A stretch of DNA of 64,000 bases from Syntrophorhabdaceae bacterium. Its GTDB lineage: Bacteria > Desulfobacterota > Syntrophorhabdia > Syntrophorhabdales > Syntrophorhabdaceae. The translations under genes and the position numbers were made by a program. Of the stretch, positions 2,631 through 26,496 are shown piece after piece. The stretch spans positions 1 through 64,000 of the forward strand of contig DASXUJ010000062.1 in NCBI GenBank assembly GCA_036504895.1, in the 5' to 3' direction. Under the pieces are notes generated by a model. The model did no database searches, was not told the DNA's origin, and saw only the letters and a program-made list of their open reading frames with translations. Numbering within the stretch: the stretch's first letter is position 1; each line of letters starts with the position of its first letter.

Positions 2631-2659
2631 ATCTTATTAGAACTCAGTGACTATGTCAA
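2631..2659 (-). promoter_or_regulatory. predicted sigma70 promoter of the MscS-like gene (leaderless)
   Basis: On the minus strand TTGACA (2659-2654), a 17-base spacer and TAAGAT (2636-2631) form a good housekeeping promoter. The -10 box ends 7 bases before ATG 2623, placing the predicted transcription start at or next to the start codon. There is no ribosome-binding site. Confidence 0.55.
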
Positions 2660-6414: not shown

Positions 6415-7323
6415 GTGAAGAAGTATCTGCTTCTTCTCGGCCTCTCCTTTTCTCTTCAGGGCTTCGGCTACTACTGCCTTGTGCATCGTGTCGAGCCCTT
6501 CTGCTATTTCTTCTATGTCACCTCATGGTGGTCCTTTATAATTCTCGCCGATGCGGTCCTGGCCGCAAAGAAAGGCAGGCTGTCGGTTCTCGACAGGCGT
6601 CTTCCCCTCACGGTCTTCGTCTCCTGCGGCTACTGGTGTCTCTTCGAAATCCTGAACCTACGGCTTCAGAACTGGCATTACATAGCCCTTCCCGAAGAAA
6701 GGGCTATACGGTACGCGGCCTATCTGCTTTCCTACGGGACCGTCGTTCCCGCGATCTATCTCACGGACGAGCTTCTCCGTCATATCTTCCCCGGTGAGCT
6801 CAGGATACGACCCCGATCCATACCCTCCCGCTATCCTGCCTACGCTTTGACAACGGGATTTCTCTGTCTCCTTCTGCTCCTTATTTTCCCTTCTGTCGCC
6901 TTCCCGCTCGCATGGGTCTTCCTCGCCCTTCTCATTGACGGCTATAATTATCTACGGGGGTATCGATCTTTTGCAGGTGATCTCGAGGCAGGCACCCTTG
7001 CCGCCTGTCTCAGGGGAGCCACCGCCGGGCTGTTTTGCGGGGTCATCTGGGAAGCATGGAATTACCGCGCCTTATCGAAGTGGATCTACACGGTTCCTTT
7101 CGTAGAGGGTCCGAAGATTTTCGAGATGCCTTTGGCCGGTTATATCGGTTTTTTGGCTTTCGGCATCGAAACCATCGCGCTCCTCAATCTTCTTGAAGGC
7201 ATCTCCCGGGACCGTATTCCCCTTTATGTGCCGGCAACGCTCGCCTTAGCCGTCTCCCTTGTCGTCTTTCCTTTTATCGACCGGTATACGGTTCTTTCTT
7301 TTGTGCCTGCGATATATCGTTGA
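6415..7323 (+). CDS. polytopic membrane protein of unknown function
   Basis: I do not recognise this 302-residue protein. It has about eight or nine hydrophobic helices spread evenly and no signal peptide cleavage site. It is rich in tryptophan and tyrosine (YVTSWWSF, WEAWNYRALSKWIY), and the C-terminal third has a polar conserved-looking stretch, GPKIFEMPLAGYIGF, followed by a glutamate in a helix (FGIETIALL). That suggests a small-molecule binding membrane enzyme or transporter, but nothing defines a substrate. The GTG start lies 5 bases after the cell-wall hydrolase stop, with no strong ribosome-binding site, consistent with coupling. It might serve the envelope like its neighbour. Confidence 0.6.
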   Translation: MKKYLLLLGLSFSLQGFGYYCLVHRVEPFCYFFYVTSWWSFIILADAVLAAKKGRLSVLDRRLPLTVFVSCGYWCLFEILNLRLQNWHYIALPEERAIRYAAYLLSYGTVVPAIYLTDELLRHIFPGELRIRPRSIPSRYPAYALTTGFLCLLLLLIFPSVAFPLAWVFLALLIDGYNYLRGYRSFAGDLEAGTLAACLRGATAGLFCGVIWEAWNYRALSKWIYTVPFVEGPKIFEMPLAGYIGFLAFGIETIALLNLLEGISRDRIPLYVPATLALAVSLVVFPFIDRYTVLSFVPAIYR

Positions 7324-7349
7324 CAGGAACCGTCCCGGTATGGTCAAAT
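7320..7349 (+). promoter_or_regulatory. candidate leaderless promoter of the TPR gene
   Basis: TTGACA (7320-7325), an 18-base spacer and TCAAAT (7344-7349; 4 of 6). ATG 7357 begins 7 bases after the -10 box and has no Shine-Dalgarno sequence. This is weaker than the other leaderless candidates because A2 of the -10 box is absent. Confidence 0.35.
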
Positions 7350-9671: not shown

Positions 9672-9700
9672 TTGACATTCCTTCCGTCCTGTGTTAACAA
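9672..9700 (+). promoter_or_regulatory. candidate leaderless promoter of the DUF1015 gene
   Basis: TTGACA (9672-9677), 17-base spacer, TAACAA (9695-9700). ATG 9708 lies 7 bases downstream and has no ribosome-binding site. The -10 box is only a moderate match. Confidence 0.45.
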
Positions 9701-13932: not shown

Positions 13933-14622
13933 TCAATCCTGCTGCCTGCCCGCGGCGCCGCTAATAATCACCACATATTCACCTTTCGGTTCGACCTGAT
14001 CGTACTCTTCGGCCAGTGACCGGAGGGTGCCCCTGCGGACCGTCTCGTGGACCTTCGTCAACTCTTTAAACACCGCTGCCTCGCGATCTCCCAACTCCGC
14101 GACGGCCGCATCAAGAGTATCGTGCAAACGTCTGGGGGATTCATAAAGGACCATGGCGTGCGGCATGAGGGCCAGTTCTCTGAATATTTTTTTCTTCTTT
14201 CCCTTCTTCAAGGGCAGAAAACCCAGGAACAGAAAGCGATCGGCATAAAGTCCGGAAATAGAAAGGGCGGCTATGACAGCGGACGGCCCGGGTATTGCCC
14301 TCACCTCGATCCCTTGATCGTGGCACTTCTTTACTACTCCCCGGCCGGGATCGGAAATACAGGGAGTGCCGGCGGCCGTGATAAGGGCGGCCGATTTCCC
14401 GCTCAAAAGCCTGTCGGTGATCTCTCCAGCCTTATTTTCCTCGGAATAACTGTTAATTGAAATAATCGGTTTTCTTATGCCGAGATGGCTCAGCAGCTTG
14501 AGCGCCCGCCCCCTGTCCTCGGCCACCACAAAATCTACCTCGCCCAGCACCTCGATAGCCCTAAGGGTGATATCTTTTAGATTTCCTATCGGCGTGGCCA
14601 TTACATAGAGAATTCCTTCCAT
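13933..14622 (-). CDS. rsmI: 16S rRNA 2'-O-ribose C1402 methyltransferase
   Basis: A 229-residue SAM-dependent tetrapyrrole-methylase-fold enzyme that methylates the ribose of C1402 in 16S rRNA. LYVMATPIGNLKDIT near the start, VAEDRGRALKLL and SAAGTPCISDPG-type sequence (here TAAGTPCISDPG), and PGPSAVIAALSISG define RsmI. An in-frame ATG lies at 14643, but ATG 14622 is chosen because AGGGGG lies just upstream and the protein then begins MEGILYVMATPIGN as usual for the family. Length fits a version without a long C-terminal extension. It is transcribed away from the lytic transglycosylase gene. Confidence 0.92.
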   Translation of the reverse strand: MEGILYVMATPIGNLKDITLRAIEVLGEVDFVVAEDRGRALKLLSHLGIRKPIISINSYSEENKAGEITDRLLSGKSAALITAAGTPCISDPGRGVVKKCHDQGIEVRAIPGPSAVIAALSISGLYADRFLFLGFLPLKKGKKKKIFRELALMPHAMVLYESPRRLHDTLDAAVAELGDREAAVFKELTKVHETVRRGTLRSLAEEYDQVEPKGEYVVIISGAAGRQQD

Positions 14623-14747: not shown

Positions 14748-14776
14748 TTGACAAGAGCCGAAAAAATGAAGAAAAT
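14748..14776 (+). promoter_or_regulatory. candidate leaderless promoter of the lytic transglycosylase gene
   Basis: TTGACA (14748-14753), 17-base spacer, GAAAAT (14771-14776). ATG 14783 starts 6 bases later and has no ribosome-binding site. A six-codon reading frame, MKKINK (14766-14786), overlaps the start codon (ATGA), offering coupling as an alternative explanation if transcription begins further upstream. Confidence 0.45.
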
Positions 14777-18081: not shown

Positions 18082-19005
18082 TTAAAATTTCTTAACAATT
18101 ATATCTTTTTCTATTGCCTCCACTTCTGCGCTGGAGCATCCGTCGACATAAAGATTCAGTGTTGATGCGGTTCCACACGCGACTCCGAGGCGCAGGGCGT
18201 CCTCAAAAGTGTCTCCCTTGCTTAATGCAAAAATCAAGCCTGCAGCCAGGGAGTCTCCCGCCCCCACGGAACTGCGGACTTTGACTTTTGGTGGAATCAT
18301 GTGAAATATCCCGTTTCCGGAAAGGCCTATCGCGCCCCTGGGACCCATGGAAATGACCACACAGGCCGCCGAATCAAGGAAAGGCTTTGCGGATTCGACG
18401 ACCTCTTCCGCTTCGGTCAGGTTCTTTCCCACGAGTCTGCTTAACTCGTGAATATTCGGTTTGATCATGTAAGGCCGTGCATTAATAGCCTGTCTCAATA
18501 TATTTTCATCCGCGTCGATAACCACTTTGATGCCCCTGTCGCCGAGGGCCGTAATCATCTGGGCATAAAATTTATCATCTATCCCTCCCGGCGCGCTGCC
18601 GCTGATCACGAGATAACTGCCCCTTGGTAATTCCCTCATTTTTTTGAGAAGAGCCAGTGTCTCGAGAGGTCCCACTTCCGGTGAAGCCGTGCTGAGTAAG
18701 GTCTGAATTTTTTTTCTCTTCTGGAAAACTGTTACATTTAGTCCCGTAGAACCCGATATAGGAGTGAGGTCGCAGACCACGCCTTCCTGGATAAGTCTGC
18801 CTTCCAGCTCCATACCACTGTAGCCGCCGGCAAAACCGAGGGCGACGCTCTCCCCTCCCAGATCTTTTATTACACGGGAAACGTCGATTCCCTTCCCTCC
18901 CGCTCTCGACCGCTCTTCGGTAATCCTGTTCACATCATCATATACAAGCTCTTCGACTTCAATGATGCGGTCGAGAAACGGATTTAATGTGACCGTGTAT
19001 ATCAT
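18082..19005 (-). CDS. PfkB-family kinase (1-phosphofructokinase/6-phosphofructokinase II-like)
   Basis: A 307-residue ribokinase-fold sugar-phosphate kinase. MIYTVTLNPFLDR at the start and RAGGKGIDVSRVIKDLGG are typical of the FruK/LacC/PfkB hexose-phosphate branch. The C-terminal SVGAGDSLAAG holds the catalytic aspartate and anion hole, and NIHEL follows the PN motif. It would phosphorylate fructose-1-phosphate, fructose-6-phosphate or tagatose-6-phosphate; the absence of a fructose PTS nearby argues mildly for a Pfk-2 role. The upstream region has an AT-rich palindrome at 19022-19038 that could be an operator. It lies 59 bases upstream of the small lipoprotein gene on the same strand. Confidence 0.82.
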   Translation of the reverse strand: MIYTVTLNPFLDRIIEVEELVYDDVNRITEERSRAGGKGIDVSRVIKDLGGESVALGFAGGYSGMELEGRLIQEGVVCDLTPISGSTGLNVTVFQKRKKIQTLLSTASPEVGPLETLALLKKMRELPRGSYLVISGSAPGGIDDKFYAQMITALGDRGIKVVIDADENILRQAINARPYMIKPNIHELSRLVGKNLTEAEEVVESAKPFLDSAACVVISMGPRGAIGLSGNGIFHMIPPKVKVRSSVGAGDSLAAGLIFALSKGDTFEDALRLGVACGTASTLNLYVDGCSSAEVEAIEKDIIVKKF

Positions 19006-19254: not shown

Positions 19255-20514
19255 CTATTTGATAAGCTCGGTTGCTGCCGCGGTAAGTGCCGCAGGATCA
19301 AGAGGAAGCTCATGCTGTTCCTTTGTGCCCATATTTCGGAGCGTCACGATGCCTTTCTCTATCTCGTCATCCCCGAGAATCAGTACGAAATCGGATTTGA
19401 GGCTGTCCGCGTATCTCATTTGGGATTTAAGTGATTTTCCATGGTAGTCGTACCTCAGAGGCATCCCGCTTTCCACGAAAGCCCGCGCCACGGAAGCCAC
19501 ATATTTCGCGGCTCTCTCACCCATATAGGCAAAGAAAAACCGCGGTCCCTTATGCGCCATTCCTCCGGGCGACACCATGGCCAATCTTTCGACGCCGATG
19601 GCGAAACCCGTGCCCGGTGTTTTCGGGCCGCCCATCTCTTCCACAAGGTTATCGTACCTCCCTCCCGCGATAAAGGTCTGCTGTGCGCCCAATTCGCCGG
19701 ACGTAAATTCGAAGACGGTTCTGGTGTAGTAGTCGAGGCCCCTTACGAGGCGCTTATTAATCGTCGTCTCTACGCCGAATCCGGCAAGAGAAGCGAGAAA
19801 CTCATCGAAATGGGTTCTACAGGGGTTGCACAGGCTCTCGAATAGAAATGGCGATTGCCTGCTCACCTCGATACAATGGGCATGCTTACAATCGAAAATC
19901 CGGAGGGGGTTCCTGTAAAGGCGCCTCACACAGTCTTCGCACAGATGCTCCTTCTTTCCCTCAAAATAGGTGATTACCTTGTTCCTGAAATCGAGCCGGC
20001 ATTCGGGACAGCCCACGCTGTTCACCTCGATGGTATACCCGGCCACTCCAAGATCTTTTAATATGAGGGAGATCATCCATAGTAATTCCGCATCGATAAG
20101 CGCCGAATCGCTGCCGAACACTTCCACATCGATCTGGCGGAATTGCCTGAACCTCCCTTTCTGGGGCTTTTCATGGCGGAACATGGGGCCGAGGGTGAAA
20201 AGCTTGCTCACCCGCTCCTTCACGAACAGGCCCGCCTGAAGGTAAGAGCGCACCACCCCTGCCGTGGCCTCGGGTCTCAGCGTCACCGAATCCCCACCAA
20301 GGTCCGTGAAGGTGAACATCTCTTTCTCCACTATGTCGGTCGTGTCCCCGATGCTTCTCACGAAGAGCTCGGTTTTTTCCAGGACCGGTATCTCCATTTC
20401 CATATAACCCAGGAGGTCAAGGTGCTTGCGCGAGATCCGCTCGATCTCGCGGAACTTTTCTATCTCTTCGCCCCAAATATCCCTGAACCCCCGAAGCGTC
20501 TGAATCTTGGCCAT
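19255..20514 (-). CDS. hisS: histidyl-tRNA synthetase
   Basis: A 419-residue class II aminoacyl-tRNA synthetase that charges tRNA-His in the cytoplasm. Motif 1 lies near the N-terminus (GYMEMEIPVLEKTELF), motif 2 as LRPEATAGVVRSY and MFRHEKPQKGRFRQFRQ, the histidine signature as LVRGLDYYTRTVFEF, and motif 3 as GTGFAIGVERL. The C-terminal ~90 residues form the anticodon-binding domain. The frame is open 48 codons further upstream, but ATG 20514 (MAKIQTLRGFRDI) matches the family start and has AGAGGAAG before it. The gene appears to be a single unit, divergent from yajD. Confidence 0.95.
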   Translation of the reverse strand: MAKIQTLRGFRDIWGEEIEKFREIERISRKHLDLLGYMEMEIPVLEKTELFVRSIGDTTDIVEKEMFTFTDLGGDSVTLRPEATAGVVRSYLQAGLFVKERVSKLFTLGPMFRHEKPQKGRFRQFRQIDVEVFGSDSALIDAELLWMISLILKDLGVAGYTIEVNSVGCPECRLDFRNKVITYFEGKKEHLCEDCVRRLYRNPLRIFDCKHAHCIEVSRQSPFLFESLCNPCRTHFDEFLASLAGFGVETTINKRLVRGLDYYTRTVFEFTSGELGAQQTFIAGGRYDNLVEEMGGPKTPGTGFAIGVERLAMVSPGGMAHKGPRFFFAYMGERAAKYVASVARAFVESGMPLRYDYHGKSLKSQMRYADSLKSDFVLILGDDEIEKGIVTLRNMGTKEQHELPLDPAALTAAATELIK

Positions 20515-20689
20515 AATCTTCCTCTGAAGAAAAAGTTTTAAAATCAACTCATTAGTACCATAATCGGGGTGATATTTAAAGCGGAAAAGCCGGCGCGGAT
20601 TCATCCTCGTGATCTCGAACGCTATAGAAACCGTATCGGAGTCCGAATCTTCCTTCAACAGTTGCTGGCAATCACCATGCCCTGTAGGT

Positions 20690-20695
20690 TATAAT
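20690..20695 (+). promoter_or_regulatory. possible -10 box of yajD
   Basis: A perfect TATAAT 31 bases before ATG 20727. No strong -35 box is seen; TGGCAA (20666-20671, 18-base spacer) matches 3 of 6. Confidence 0.3.
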
Positions 20696-20726
20696 TCTTT
20701 ACCATCATAATGGCGAGGTGCAGGAG

Positions 20727-21062
20727 ATGAGAAACAAGGGATACAAGGTGCGCCGCATGCCCGCTTCCGGCAAGAAGGGTGAGGGAAAGACCGTGGATGA
20801 GATCGTGAAGGAACTCCAGTCGATGAATGCCCCGAAAAACGATTACCGCGAGCAGTCGCTCAAAATCTACGGCCTCATCTGTGCAAAATGCGCGAGGGAA
20901 TTCGAATATAAAGACAGGCATCTTCTTACGGTGCACCACAAAGACGGGAACCACAACAACAACCCTCCCGACGGCTCAAATTGGGAGAACCTCTGTGTCT
21001 ATTGTCATGATGAAGAGCACACGAAGGGGATGCTCGGAGATTATCTCAGCTCCGACAGGTGA
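20727..21062 (+). CDS. yajD: HNH nuclease-like protein YajD
   Basis: A 111-residue HNH-fold protein with zinc-ribbon cysteines. The layout is CAKC, then LTVHHKDGNHNNNP with the HNH histidines and asparagines, then CVYCHDEEH. This order and spacing match YajD of E. coli. The protein would be a small metal-dependent endonuclease, but its cellular target is unknown. A basic N-terminal tail of ~35 residues precedes the domain. ATG 20727 is preferred over GTG 20718 because GAGG lies 8 bases before it. It is followed after 25 bases by the FxLYD-like gene, with which it is likely cotranscribed. Confidence 0.8.
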   Translation: MRNKGYKVRRMPASGKKGEGKTVDEIVKELQSMNAPKNDYREQSLKIYGLICAKCAREFEYKDRHLLTVHHKDGNHNNNPPDGSNWENLCVYCHDEEHTKGMLGDYLSSDR

Positions 21063-21087
21063 ATTGGTTCAAAAAAACGGGGATCGA

Positions 21088-21453
21088 ATGGATGAGAGAA
21101 TAGAATGCGGCGCCAAGGTGAATAATCCGCCCCGGCTCTCCTATGTCAGTAGCGGAGAGGGACTGGAGCTGGGCAGCCACGCTTTCTTGAGGCCCTTGCC
21201 TCCCTGCTGCGCTCAAATCGCTTCACCTTATTGGGCGCGTATAATCGGCGCCGTATCGAATACAGGCGGTCGAGAGGTCCTCGTGAAAGTGATCGCCACC
21301 CTCTTCGACGAAGAGGGCAGGACTCTCGGCACACATTTCGATTTCATGGCCCTCGATGGAGGCGAGAAGAGCGAGTTCGATATTAAAATCACCAGCTTTT
21401 ATGACCATGCCTATGCCTACGGCCTCGAAGTCACGGAAAGCGGAGATATCTGA
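21088..21453 (+). CDS. FxLYD-like domain protein
   Basis: A 121-residue soluble protein with no signal peptide. The second half (about 45-110) has the beta-sandwich pattern of FxLYD-type domains: IIGAVSNTGGREVLVKV, then ATLFDEEGRTLGTH, then LDGGEKSEFDI. Such domains usually occur in extracytoplasmic proteins, and an intracellular copy is slightly odd. No function can be assigned. ATG 21088 has a modest GGGGA upstream. The reading frame is open further back but that part runs over yajD. The stop is 4 bases before the TTG assigned to rlmD, suggesting coupling. Confidence 0.6.
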   Translation: MDERIECGAKVNNPPRLSYVSSGEGLELGSHAFLRPLPPCCAQIASPYWARIIGAVSNTGGREVLVKVIATLFDEEGRTLGTHFDFMALDGGEKSEFDIKITSFYDHAYAYGLEVTESGDI

Positions 21454-21457
21454 AGGT

Positions 21458-22846
21458 TTGACCAAATCACTGAAAAGAGAAGAGAAGGTCCTTGAAATTG
21501 TCGATGTTTCTCTCCCCGACGGATTCGGCGTGGGCAAGGAGGAAGGCTTCGTATATTTCGTTCCCGGCGCCGTGGCGGGCGACATCGTGCGCATCGGAAT
21601 AAGAAAGAGGGATCGCCGTTTTTCCGTGGGAGATATCCTCGAGATCATCCGGCCGTCCTCTCACAGGGCTCAACCTTTCTGCGGCCACTTCGGCTCCTGC
21701 GGGGGATGCACTCTTCAGCACATCGCCTACGATAGGCAGCTCGAGATCAAAGAAAACCATCTCCGTCAGGCCCTGGCCAGAATAGGCGGAGTGGACCTCG
21801 AATCGGTTGAGATAGCCCCAATTGTGCCTGCGCCGCACCAGCAGTGGGGCAGGAACAATATAGAGCTGTCTTTCGGGCGGGGAAAATCAGGACTCGTGCT
21901 CGGACTGCGCGAGCGGGCTGCTCCCGGAAAAAGCTATGAAGGAAAGGTGGTTCCTCTCTCACAGTGTCCCGCCTTCAGTACCGCAATCGATTCGATCGTG
22001 CCGGTCGTCTCGGAGTACTTCAACCGGAGTGGACTTACCCCGTACGATCCTGGTCGTAAGAAAGGAATTCTTAAACATCTCCTCCTGCGGGAGTCCAAAT
22101 CCACCGGCCGCATCATGGCCGTGCTCGAGACCGCGCCGGGCCCTATCATATCCCTGTCCGCCCTTTGGCACGAGCTCCGTGAGAGGGTTCCCCGACTGGG
22201 GTGCTTCTACCGCGCCGTGAGCAAGGGTAGCGTCGATACGGGCCTCTATGATTACGAAGAGCATCTCTTCGGCGCCGCTTCGATCGAAGAATCGGTGGCA
22301 GGCCTTACATTCCACATATATCCCCAATCCTTTTTTCAGGCGAATACCGCGGTCGCAGAGCTTCTCTATGAGAGCGTTCTCGAGGTGGCCCGACTTGGGA
22401 AGGGCGACAAGGTCCTCGGTCTCTACTCCGGCATGGGTCCCCTCGAGATTATTTTGTCCCGAAACGCCCGCCGGGTGACCGGGGTCGACTCGAACCCTGC
22501 CAATATCATAAACGCCCGCCTGAATTGCCAGGTAAACGATATCATGAATTGCGTTTTCATTGAGGGGAAGGTCGAGCAGTTGAAGAGCCGGCTTCCTTCC
22601 GGACCCGATCTACTCGTCATCGACCCCCCAAGGGGAGGCGTGAGCCCGCAGGGACTCAGCCTCGCAGTATCCCTCAATCCGTCGAAATTCATCTATATCT
22701 CCTGCAATCCCTCCACCCTCGCACGGGATATCGGCCTTCTCAGGGGCAGCGGGTACCGGCCGGTGAAAATTCTCCCTTTTGACGCCTTCCCTCACACCTC
22801 CCACCTGGAGACCCTGGTGCTGCTCGAAACGGGCGGCCCCTTTTGA
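21458..22846 (+). CDS. rlmD: 23S rRNA (uracil-5-)-methyltransferase RumA/RlmD type
   Basis: About 462 residues. These enzymes methylate C5 of a specific uridine in 23S rRNA using SAM. The [4Fe-4S] cluster cysteines are C75, C81 and C84 (CGHFGSCGGC) and C170. A TRAM-like RNA-binding domain covers about 8-65. The methyltransferase domain has GLYSGMGPLEI (motif I; Phe-Cys of the usual LFCG is replaced), a DPPRGG motif, and the catalytic cysteine in SCNPSTLARD. Whether it is RlmD or RlmC is not certain. The start is uncertain: TTG 21458 fits the spacing, while in-frame ATGs at 21401-21413 lie inside the previous gene. Confidence 0.85.
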   Translation: MTKSLKREEKVLEIVDVSLPDGFGVGKEEGFVYFVPGAVAGDIVRIGIRKRDRRFSVGDILEIIRPSSHRAQPFCGHFGSCGGCTLQHIAYDRQLEIKENHLRQALARIGGVDLESVEIAPIVPAPHQQWGRNNIELSFGRGKSGLVLGLRERAAPGKSYEGKVVPLSQCPAFSTAIDSIVPVVSEYFNRSGLTPYDPGRKKGILKHLLLRESKSTGRIMAVLETAPGPIISLSALWHELRERVPRLGCFYRAVSKGSVDTGLYDYEEHLFGAASIEESVAGLTFHIYPQSFFQANTAVAELLYESVLEVARLGKGDKVLGLYSGMGPLEIILSRNARRVTGVDSNPANIINARLNCQVNDIMNCVFIEGKVEQLKSRLPSGPDLLVIDPPRGGVSPQGLSLAVSLNPSKFIYISCNPSTLARDIGLLRGSGYRPVKILPFDAFPHTSHLETLVLLETGGPF

Positions 22847-22871
22847 AACTCCGGGTTCGCCATGGTATAAT
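22843..22871 (+). promoter_or_regulatory. strong sigma70 promoter predicting a leaderless HAD mRNA
   Basis: TTGAAA (22843-22848), exactly 17 bases, then perfect TATAAT (22866-22871). The start codon begins 6 bases after the -10 box, so the predicted first transcribed base is the A of ATG. The -35 box overlaps the rlmD stop codon. Confidence 0.65.
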
Positions 22872-22877
22872 AGGGAC

Positions 22878-23507
22878 ATGAAAAAAATTATTTCTTTCGA
22901 TCTGGACGGAACCCTCGTGGACGGCATTTATGGTGAAATGGTGTGGAACCACGGGGTTCCCGAGGTCTATGCGAAGACCCACGGCATTACATTTGAAGAG
23001 GCAAAGAGATTCACGCGCAAAGAATTTGAGTCACTGGGCGATGGAAGGCTGGAATGGTACGATATCGATTACTGGCTGCACCGTTTCGGCCTCCCCGTCT
23101 CGCCTCCGGAGCTTCTTGACCGCTATGAACGCCATATAGAGCTCCTGCCTCACGCGAAGGAGGTGCTCACGGCCCTTCAGAAGAGGTACACGCTTATTAT
23201 CGCATCCAACGCGGCGCGGATCTTCGTTGAAAAGGAGATCTCCTTCACCGGCATCGGAGTACACTTCACCCACATCGTATCGGCCACGAGCGACTACGGG
23301 ATCGTCAAGAAAGGAGAAACGTTTTACAGGACTCTCCTCGACAACCTTTCCGTATCCCCGGACGAGGTCGTCCACGTGGGCGATCACAGGTTATTTGATT
23401 ACGAGGCCCCTTCCCGGTTCGGCATAGAGTCCTATCATCTCTGTTCCGAGGGTAACGGCAGCCACAAGATTATACACGATCTGAAGACTCTCCTCGAGAG
23501 ACTATGA
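22878..23507 (+). CDS. HAD-superfamily phosphatase
   Basis: A 209-residue haloacid-dehalogenase-type hydrolase, cytoplasmic. Motif I is FDLDGTLVD with nucleophile D8 and general acid D10; motif II is IIASNAAR; the motif III lysine is in IVKKGETFYR; and motif IV is HVGDHRLFDYEAP. The cap between motifs I and II is helical. It most resembles small-molecule phosphatases of the phosphoglycolate/REG-2-like type, but the substrate cannot be named. A run-on reading frame extends into rlmD, but the ATG at 22878 has the family start. It has no Shine-Dalgarno sequence at working distance. Its stop overlaps the next start (ATGA). Confidence 0.8.
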   Translation: MKKIISFDLDGTLVDGIYGEMVWNHGVPEVYAKTHGITFEEAKRFTRKEFESLGDGRLEWYDIDYWLHRFGLPVSPPELLDRYERHIELLPHAKEVLTALQKRYTLIIASNAARIFVEKEISFTGIGVHFTHIVSATSDYGIVKKGETFYRTLLDNLSVSPDEVVHVGDHRLFDYEAPSRFGIESYHLCSEGNGSHKIIHDLKTLLERL

Positions 23508-23785
23508 TGGAATGTCCAAAATGCCACGCCCCTCTCGACGGTGAGCGAATCTCCTTCAGGGACGAATGCCCTCTCTGCGGGACCGACCTCCACGCCTGCA
23601 TCTACTGCCGGTTCTACGACCAGGGCAAGGCCAACCGCTGCAGAGAGCCTCAGGCCGATTACGTCCATGAGCGGGACCGTGCCAATGTCTGTGAATATTT
23701 CAATTTTGAATATAAGGACGCCTCAAGGGCCTCCGGAAAAGATGCCGCCCAGAAGCTCTGGGATGAGGTGTTCAGGAAGGGCTGA
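23504..23785 (+). CDS. Cys-rich zinc-ribbon-like protein, unknown function
   Basis: A 93-residue protein with eight cysteines in the first two thirds: C4-x2-C7, C22-x2-C25, C32-x2-C35, C46 and C63. The first four look like a zinc ribbon; the remaining part with CIYCRFYD, RCREPQADYV and RANVCEYF recurs as a unit in hypothetical proteins of related bacteria as far as I recall, and may bind a second metal. The rest is helical. It starts at ATG 23504 overlapping the HAD stop (ATGATGG), with a second ATG at 23507. Cotranscription with the HAD gene suggests a shared pathway, but no role can be assigned. Confidence 0.65.
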   Translation: MMECPKCHAPLDGERISFRDECPLCGTDLHACIYCRFYDQGKANRCREPQADYVHERDRANVCEYFNFEYKDASRASGKDAAQKLWDEVFRKG

Positions 23786-23823
23786 GGTCTCCCGCAAGGC
23801 CTTATTCTGCAATAATTAACCTT

Positions 23824-26496
23824 TTACTCCGGCGGCGCTCCACCCTTTTCGGGCCCGGCGGCACATTCCTCGAGCACTCGCAGGATCGGCATATAATCGT
23901 AGTTCTCTACCAGACGCCCCAGCGCATGTGCCAGAGCTGCGTCTCTTTCATTGATCCCGATAACAATCCTGGAAATCGACTCCTGGTCAGCCCTGATCAA
24001 CGCATCCGAAAGCTCCTGCCGTAGTGATGACGAAAGCCCTTCCAGCGCGGCCGGCTTAAAAAATCCGTCATCCGTCTCCGGCAACCCTGTCCTCTCCCCG
24101 TATAAGTATTCGATTCCAAGGTGTCTCCGCATGCAATCGAATATCTCTTCAGGACGGTAAGGCTTACGCACCAGGTCGTCCATATCCGCAGCCATAACCT
24201 CTTCCTTATGCTCCACAAGTGCCGAGGCCGTAACCGCGACGATCTTCACGTCCCTGCCGCCCTCGAGCCCTCGGATCGCACGGGTTGCCTGGAGACCGTC
24301 CATGACGGGCATACGCCGATCCATCCAGATAAAGTGCGGCTTCCACTCTTGAAAAAGACGCACCCCTTCCCGGCCGTTTACCGCGCTCTTCACACGGAGA
24401 CCCACACCTTCCAGAAGGCGTGTGAGAAGGAGTCTGTTTTCCGCCTGGTCTTCCACAATCAGGATACGCCACTCCTCGGGTCCGGGCGCAATGGCAACGG
24501 GTCTTGCCCTTTCCTTCAGGGACGACTCCCTGACCGGCTCGTCGCTCACCTTTGCAGGCAGCTCAACACGAAATAGCGAACCCGTGCCGGGGGTGCTTTC
24601 CACCTCAATTTTTCCACCCATCAGTTCAACGAACTGTTTCGTAATAGCGAGACCGAGACCGGTCCCTTTCTGGGCGCTCGTCTTCCCCACCTGCACGAAA
24701 GGGTCGAATATATCGCGCCGGTCTTCCTCGCTGATACCGACGCCGCTGTCCTCCACCTCTATCGCGATCACGGGGCCCCGGAGCCGGAGGTGCAAGGTGA
24801 TGCTGCCACGGTCGGTAAATTTCACGGCATTGGTGAAAAGGTTTATGATCACCTGCCTCAATTTCACCCCGTCGCTACGAACTATTTTAGGAAAATCATA
24901 CGATTGGTCGAGAAGAAGATCGAGCCCCTTCTTTGCTGCCCGTTCCTGCATCATGGCCATTATTTCCCGCATCATGGCATGGAGGTCCACGGGCTCTTCA
25001 TCTATCTTGACGCGACCCGCTTCGATCTTCGCCATATCGAGGACGTCGTCAATGAGAGAGAGCAGGTATTCCCCGCTACGCCTGATTATCTCGAGGCTCT
25101 CTCGCTGCACGGGGGTTGTGGAAGGGTCGTTTTGCATGAGATCGGAAAATCCGAGGATGCCGTTCATCGGGCTTCTCAGCTCATGGCTCATATTCGCGAG
25201 AAAGGCGCTCTTGGCCCTGTTCGCATGCTCCGCCCGCTCGGTTGCCTCCGCCAACTCCCGGCTGCGAACGATAAGGGCGGAGTTCGCCTGGGCCAGTTGC
25301 CCCAGGGTCTTCCGCCGTTGCAGGCTCACACGGATGAGAGTTATCACCAGTAGCGTCTCCAGTGCAAACGCGGCGAACGCAAGGAGCACATAATTCCGAT
25401 AGCGCTGCCAAAGCGTTTTCTCGCGGTGCAAAATCACGCTTCCCGGCGGCAAGCGAGTATCAGGAATACTCCATTTCCGAAGCGCGGGAGCATCAAAATA
25501 ATATCCGGTCAGCTCTTCCTTCAGCTGCTTTCCGGATAATCTGAGCGGTGAATCATACCCTGCAGCGATAACACGGCTCATCAAACCGCCTTCTTTCTCG
25601 CCGCTCCTCAAGAACCCCCCGACCACATTTCCCTTCATGTGAGAGTCAAGGACCCCGAAAACAGGAACCGAAGCGGATTCGCCGAGCCGTTGAGCCACCC
25701 TTTCCTGATAACCATGCTTCCCCAGGCGGTCATAGGACATCCCGAGATAGAGAATGGCTGCAGTCCTCGGAAGCTTTCCTGCCTTTTCATACACCTCTTC
25801 AAAAGAGAGATTGTCCCAGAACTCGAACTCCGCCCTGCCGGCGAAGGCACGTGACGACTCCCTCAGGTCTCCGAAGATTCCGGCAGCCCGGTGGCCGGGA
25901 TCACCCACCACCACAATACGTCGTGTCTGCGGCAGGACGTGGAGGATAGTGGCAATTGCAATCTTTCCTCCATCGGAAAGGGCAGAGAAAGAGGCGTCCT
26001 GAGAAATACCCGGCGTATTGGCTTTCCCGATCATGTTGAAAAAGAGCCGGGGAGTTCCGGAAAAGAGGCCCGGGTTGCCGGAAAGAAATTCAGCTGCGGG
26101 CAATGACTCGGTAAGGACCATATTGAACTTTGTGGAGCAATATTTTGCCGCGAGGTATTCAGCGAGCGCCTTCCGGCCGTCGGCCGTTTCGAGACGGCCG
26201 AGGTCAAGCTGCTCCTCGTATACATCCGGCCGGATGCCTTCCGGTATTTCATGCAAACCTTGTGCAAGGCCCTTTCGCACGTTTGCGGTGTAACTGTATC
26301 CGTCGTTGAAGGAATAAAGCACGAGTGTTTTCCGGTTTTCTGCTGTTTCCTTTTTTTCTCCCCACGAAGGAACGGCATAGAAGATGAAAAGACAGCACAA
26401 GGCCCAAACCAAATACAGATTGCCTCTCCCATGGCCGGAAAACCGTGCTATCGCCGCCCCCTGACGCCCTTTGGAAGAAGAAACCTTTTCACTCAT
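23824..26496 (-). CDS. hybrid sensor histidine kinase with periplasmic binding-type sensor
   Basis: A 890-residue membrane sensor. A signal/anchor helix (27-45) is followed by a periplasmic domain (about 50-365) of the ABC substrate-binding-like type, with [10 protein letters not shown] at its start. A second membrane helix (368-392) and a coiled coil lead to the HisKA domain with phospho-accepting H438 (NMSHELRSP), a HATPase domain (N box [10 protein letters not shown] boxes EDSGVGIS and GTGLGLAI), and a receiver domain with D726 (WMDRRMP). The C-terminal ~90 residues are helical without a clear Hpt histidine. ATG 26496 overlaps the stop of the GGDEF gene by 8 bases (ATGAGTGA), so the two are coexpressed. 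Confidence 0.88.

Follow-up and report, generated by a model that had tools for sequence, protein, structure and literature searches.

Leaderless genes were predicted in 207 of 953 bacterial genomes by Zheng et al. (2011; PMC3160421). The TA-led genes of that study have a TANNNT/TATAAT element around 10-12 bp before the start and no Shine-Dalgarno site, and the genes described here resemble them (a -10 element ending 6-7 bases from the start, no Shine-Dalgarno site, an assigned start codon and an enriched spacing) but differ in that conservation across species is seen for five named genes and in that a smaller fraction of the genes is estimated to be of this kind. In Deinococcus, the -10 motif of leaderless genes, located 6-7 bp before the ORF, has been studied experimentally (PMC12340547). 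The distance of 6-7 bp, the leaderless mRNA and the conservation among species that characterize Deinococcus-Thermus have their counterpart, observed or predicted, in the present genes. In Deinococcus-Thermus, however, about one third of the genes is concerned and the evidence comes from transcriptomes and reporters, whereas here it is a minority of the genes and the evidence comes from sequence alone. Moreover, the present genes usually have a -35 element TTGACA or a TG extension, unlike those of Deinococcus-Thermus (PMC12340547).

The genes were found in DNA of a member of the Syntrophorhabdales, which belong to the phylum Thermodesulfobacteriota. A search for 16S rRNA gave no match in the assembly. 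An earlier, sequence-only reading of this DNA had stated that leaderless mRNAs are not generally described for this group. That is partly right: Zheng et al. (2011) predicted leaderless genes for 8 of the 33 delta-proteobacterial genomes that they listed, on average 15.8% of the genes in those 8, and the names Syntroph- and Geobacter are absent from their text (PMC3160421). No transcription-start study of Syntrophorhabdales was found in the literature searched. The leaderless phenomenon is already known; the papers searched contain no account of it being conserved for these genes in the present lineage.

The HAD start site

In the window (the whole stretch of 64,000 nucleotides that was analysed), the layout TTGAAA-17-TATAAT-6-ATG reported at 22843-22880 before a gene encoding a HAD-superfamily hydrolase was exact, with the ATG at 22878-22880 (Table 1). 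It reached a score of 11/12 in a consensus scan and was clearly the top promoter-like site of positions 20000-26000. The HAD catalytic motif DLDGTL begins at residue 8 of the protein, which makes a downstream start unlikely, and many orthologues have an in-frame stop 6-15 bases upstream of the start (in g9 and other genera it lies at -9, between the -10 element and the start), so that the start codon is fixed. The ATG at 22878 is for these two reasons very likely the true start. Since the discriminator ends in a pyrimidine, the A of this ATG would be the favoured +1.

Table 1. Predicted promoter elements and genes in the window
Feature	Position	Strand	Remarks
-35-like TTGAAA, HAD gene	22843..22848	+	overlaps stop codon of upstream RlmD-type gene; not kept in orthologues
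Extended -10 TGG-TATAAT, HAD gene	22863..22871	+	TG 22863-22864, TATAAT 22866-22871; conserved
Six-base discriminator AGGGAC, HAD gene	22872..22877	+	length conserved (6-8), sequence variable
HAD-superfamily hydrolase gene, predicted leaderless	22878..23507	+	PF00702, PF13419
93-aa cysteine-rich protein gene, 3' of HAD gene	23504..23785	+	conserved partner, same two-gene unit
MscS-like promoter TTGACA-17-TAAGAT-7-ATG	2631..2659	-	ATG 2623, gene 1940-2623; conserved in 26/29 orthologues
TPR gene promoter TTGACA-18-TCAAAT-7-ATG	7320..7349	+	ATG 7357; kept as TGAAAT in 25/27 orthologues
DUF1015 promoter TTGACA-17-TAACAA-7-ATG	9672..9700	+	ATG 9708; 5-10 base spacing in 24/29 orthologues
Lytic transglycosylase promoter TTGACA-17-GAAAAT-6-ATG	14748..14776	+	ATG 14783; conserved in 26/29 orthologues

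The gene of the 93-aa protein overlaps the stop of the HAD gene by 4 bases and accompanies it almost everywhere in the family and the order. This partner had no match in Pfam or NCBIfam, and the two proteins possibly form an uncharacterised HAD/zinc-ribbon pair.

Conservation of the predicted HAD promoter

HAD orthologues were found in 51 of 60 relatives and were aligned at the start codon; the comparison covered 41 distinct sequences from some 40 genomes within the family and order. In about 29 of the 41, TGnTATAAT or TATACT precedes the start by 6-8 bases, the hexamer being TATAAT in 25 and TATACT in 4, mostly with the TG, and orthologues of the same family show little upstream similarity beyond this element. 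The -35 hexamer is variable. As the -35 region is not conserved, the promoter is best read as one of the extended -10 type, and the orthologues have what is described for sigma-70 promoters of that type (TGnTATAAT, with a dispensable -35). Of the promoter with -35 and -10 elements proposed earlier, the -10 part, in its extended form, is hence conserved, while the TTGAAA is not.

The layout is missing from around 12 of the 41 orthologues (those of family f3, part of family f2, one g8 genome and genera g2 and g12). Genera g12 and g2 keep TATAAT at the HAD gene, with leaders that are mostly longer. Two orthologues (L138 and L140) combine the same TATAAT with a leader of some 14 bases containing GGAG, and these starts look like a switch to the ordinary leadered mode. 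No TATAAT was found at the HAD start in four outgroups from the phylum (L146-L149), where Shine-Dalgarno-like stretches, judged by eye, precede the start. Three orthologues of family f3, from the same order (L135, L141 and L145), have a terminator-like hairpin about 5-20 bases upstream of the HAD start, which by its closeness leaves little room for a leader.

A uniform scan of five orthologue sets

The HAD set and those of the four companion genes were scanned uniformly, using distinct orthologues and leaving the best promoter free to fall anywhere 0-44 bases from the start. It fell 4-11 bases from the start in 30/41 HAD orthologues (one of these, GATAGT, looks like a chance match), 24/29 DUF1015, 25/27 TPR, 26/29 transglycosylase and 26/29 MscS-like orthologues, that is in 131 of 155 when the five genes are pooled. 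For two control genes from this region the best promoters were located 26-44 bases from the start. The start codon is ATG in 129 of the 131 orthologues, none of which has a Shine-Dalgarno-like core, an absence that follows partly from the -10 element occupying that position.

The most common spacings between the -10 element and the start are 6 and 7. Pyrimidines prevail at positions -1 and -2 across the five sets (the base preceding the ATG is mostly C or T, the transglycosylase set being the exception), so that transcription probably begins at the A of the ATG. The closest alternative is a transcript starting 1-5 bases upstream of the ATG, which would yield a near-leaderless mRNA with a very short leader that is translated without a Shine-Dalgarno site. 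Some HAD, DUF1015 and TPR orthologues indeed have a spacing of 8-10, which fits a leader of 1-4 bases better than a leaderless transcript; yet spacings are mostly 6-7 and, with pyrimidines at -1/-2, most orthologues offer no good start base before the A of the ATG, so that we regard a short leader as improbable.

The four companion genes

The earlier reading had pointed to four other genes with a distance of 6-7 bases between the -10 box and the start, and these sites are as described, with a spacing that is kept across the family. The orthologues of the MscS-like, DUF1015, transglycosylase and TPR genes have TTGACA or TTGACT, 17-18 bases, a -10-like box, 5-10 bases and the ATG, also in the neighbouring family f2 and partly in f3. 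The conserved -10 elements of DUF1015 (TAACAA/TAACAC) and TPR (TGAAAT) are atypical.

A second alternative is that the conserved elements at the ATG are binding sites of a regulator, the real promoters being elsewhere. The DUF1015 box is palindromic, reading TGTGTTAACACA in a number of genomes, and offers no consensus -10, and the TPR box TGAAAT has a G at the second hexamer position, where an A is normally invariant. TTGACA is nevertheless retained 17-18 bp from both boxes, and ordinary -10 boxes are seen at the three remaining genes; we consider this alternative very improbable.

Several further observations were made on these and nearby loci. A conserved TGTGTTAACA-like box at 9690-9700 (plus strand; L150-L179) overlaps the -10 element of the DUF1015 gene and is extended to the full palindrome in some genomes; it is possibly an operator or an unusual -10 element. 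The TPR -10 region (7338-7349, plus strand) is kept as TGTTGAAATACC or TGGTGAAATACC in relatives (L180-L209). Contigs G002:C92 and G020:C68 gave identical match coordinates (L182/L183 and L241/L242) despite being assigned to different genera, and likely represent a misbinned contig in one MAG. In several relatives a TP_methylase family gene (13933-14622 in the window, minus strand) has a leaderless-looking start with TTGTCAAG...TACTATGCTTGATACGCATG, a layout that the window's own copy lacks. Relatives share GTAGCCATTTT...TTTAATAAAATA upstream of a PfkB family gene (18082-19005, minus strand), at a short and variable distance from the ATG.

Genome-wide spacing

A sample of 1.02 Mb from the 4.35 Mb assembly (138 contigs) was analysed, in which genes were called by a simple coding-potential script. 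TTGACA was found 29-31 bases before the candidate ATG of 12 genes, versus approximately 1 per position elsewhere; a distance of 29-30 is expected from a 17-base spacer and a gap of 6-7 bases. Strong promoters (combined -35/-10 score of at least 10.5) occurred 5-9 bases before the ATG in 17/650 genes, neighbouring 5-base bins holding 3-6, as compared to 1.8 +/- 1.1 in dinucleotide-shuffled upstream regions. The excess over shuffled regions anticipated by the earlier reading is therefore present. None of the 18 listed candidates (promoter distance 4-10) has a Shine-Dalgarno core. With about 190 equally strong promoters located up to 130 bases from a start, background not subtracted, leaderless starts would very roughly make up 10% of the recognisable promoters, a minority class by this crude estimate. 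Their share may be higher, because atypical -10 boxes like that of DUF1015 score below the threshold. Among the genes predicted to be leaderless is one starting MFEKLQERLEST (L020, on G000:C20, minus strand, start at 2126), which we take to be possibly ffh (signal recognition particle).

The signal extends to relatives. In 39 family genomes TGnTATAAT occurs 795 times at 5-9 bases before an ATG versus 584 times at 14-18 bases (32 genomes up, 6 down). The TTGACA counts for the family are 652 versus 526. Phylum-wide the TTGACA/ATG counts are 15666 versus 14008, a 12% excess (142 genomes up, 50 down), but these counts are dominated by chance matches within genes and are too blunt for ranking families. 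Raw TATAAT-to-ATG distances, taken without gene calling, give a weak peak, probably due to ATGs within genes; the spacing signal is clear once gene starts and the -35 element are included.

Least probable of all is that the HAD gene is merely co-transcribed with the RlmD-type gene upstream, its TATAAT being a chance match: read-through is possible in the window, the two genes lying on the same strand with a gap of 31 bp and the HAD -35 overlapping the RlmD-type stop codon, but this neighbour is confined to the window's genus, the -10 element and its spacing persist beside the different upstream neighbours found elsewhere, and the shuffled regions give a low chance expectation.

Discussion

Promoter-like elements lie at a nearly fixed distance from the ATG of five genes, they are conserved, they come without a Shine-Dalgarno-like site and their spacing is in excess genome-wide. 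We consider it highly probable that the HAD gene has an extended -10 promoter giving a leaderless mRNA, in a layout common to the four companions and to a minority of genes genome-wide, as the earlier reading proposed and as the sequence comparisons support. In this model a housekeeping (sigma-70-type) extended -10 promoter would drive the HAD gene, with RNA polymerase starting at the A of the ATG or at most about 2 bases away from it. The resulting leaderless mRNA would carry the HAD gene and its 93-aa partner, and ribosomes would have to start at its 5'-terminal AUG with no help from Shine-Dalgarno pairing. The same layout would serve the MscS-like, transglycosylase, TPR and DUF1015 genes and the minority found genome-wide. 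Both the transcription start and the leaderless mode of translation are deduced here from these comparisons. That selection holds the five-gene set leaderless throughout the family and in part of the order, leading to joint translational control by the state of the ribosome, is a further idea that we think unlikely.

The promoter-to-start distance is conserved in the five orthologue sets over roughly 30-85% protein identity. Within the sets some starts seem to have changed between the leaderless and the Shine-Dalgarno mode, which makes the sets useful for studying such transitions. They also help the annotation of start codons and promoters in uncultured anaerobes, where gene callers usually seek Shine-Dalgarno sites.
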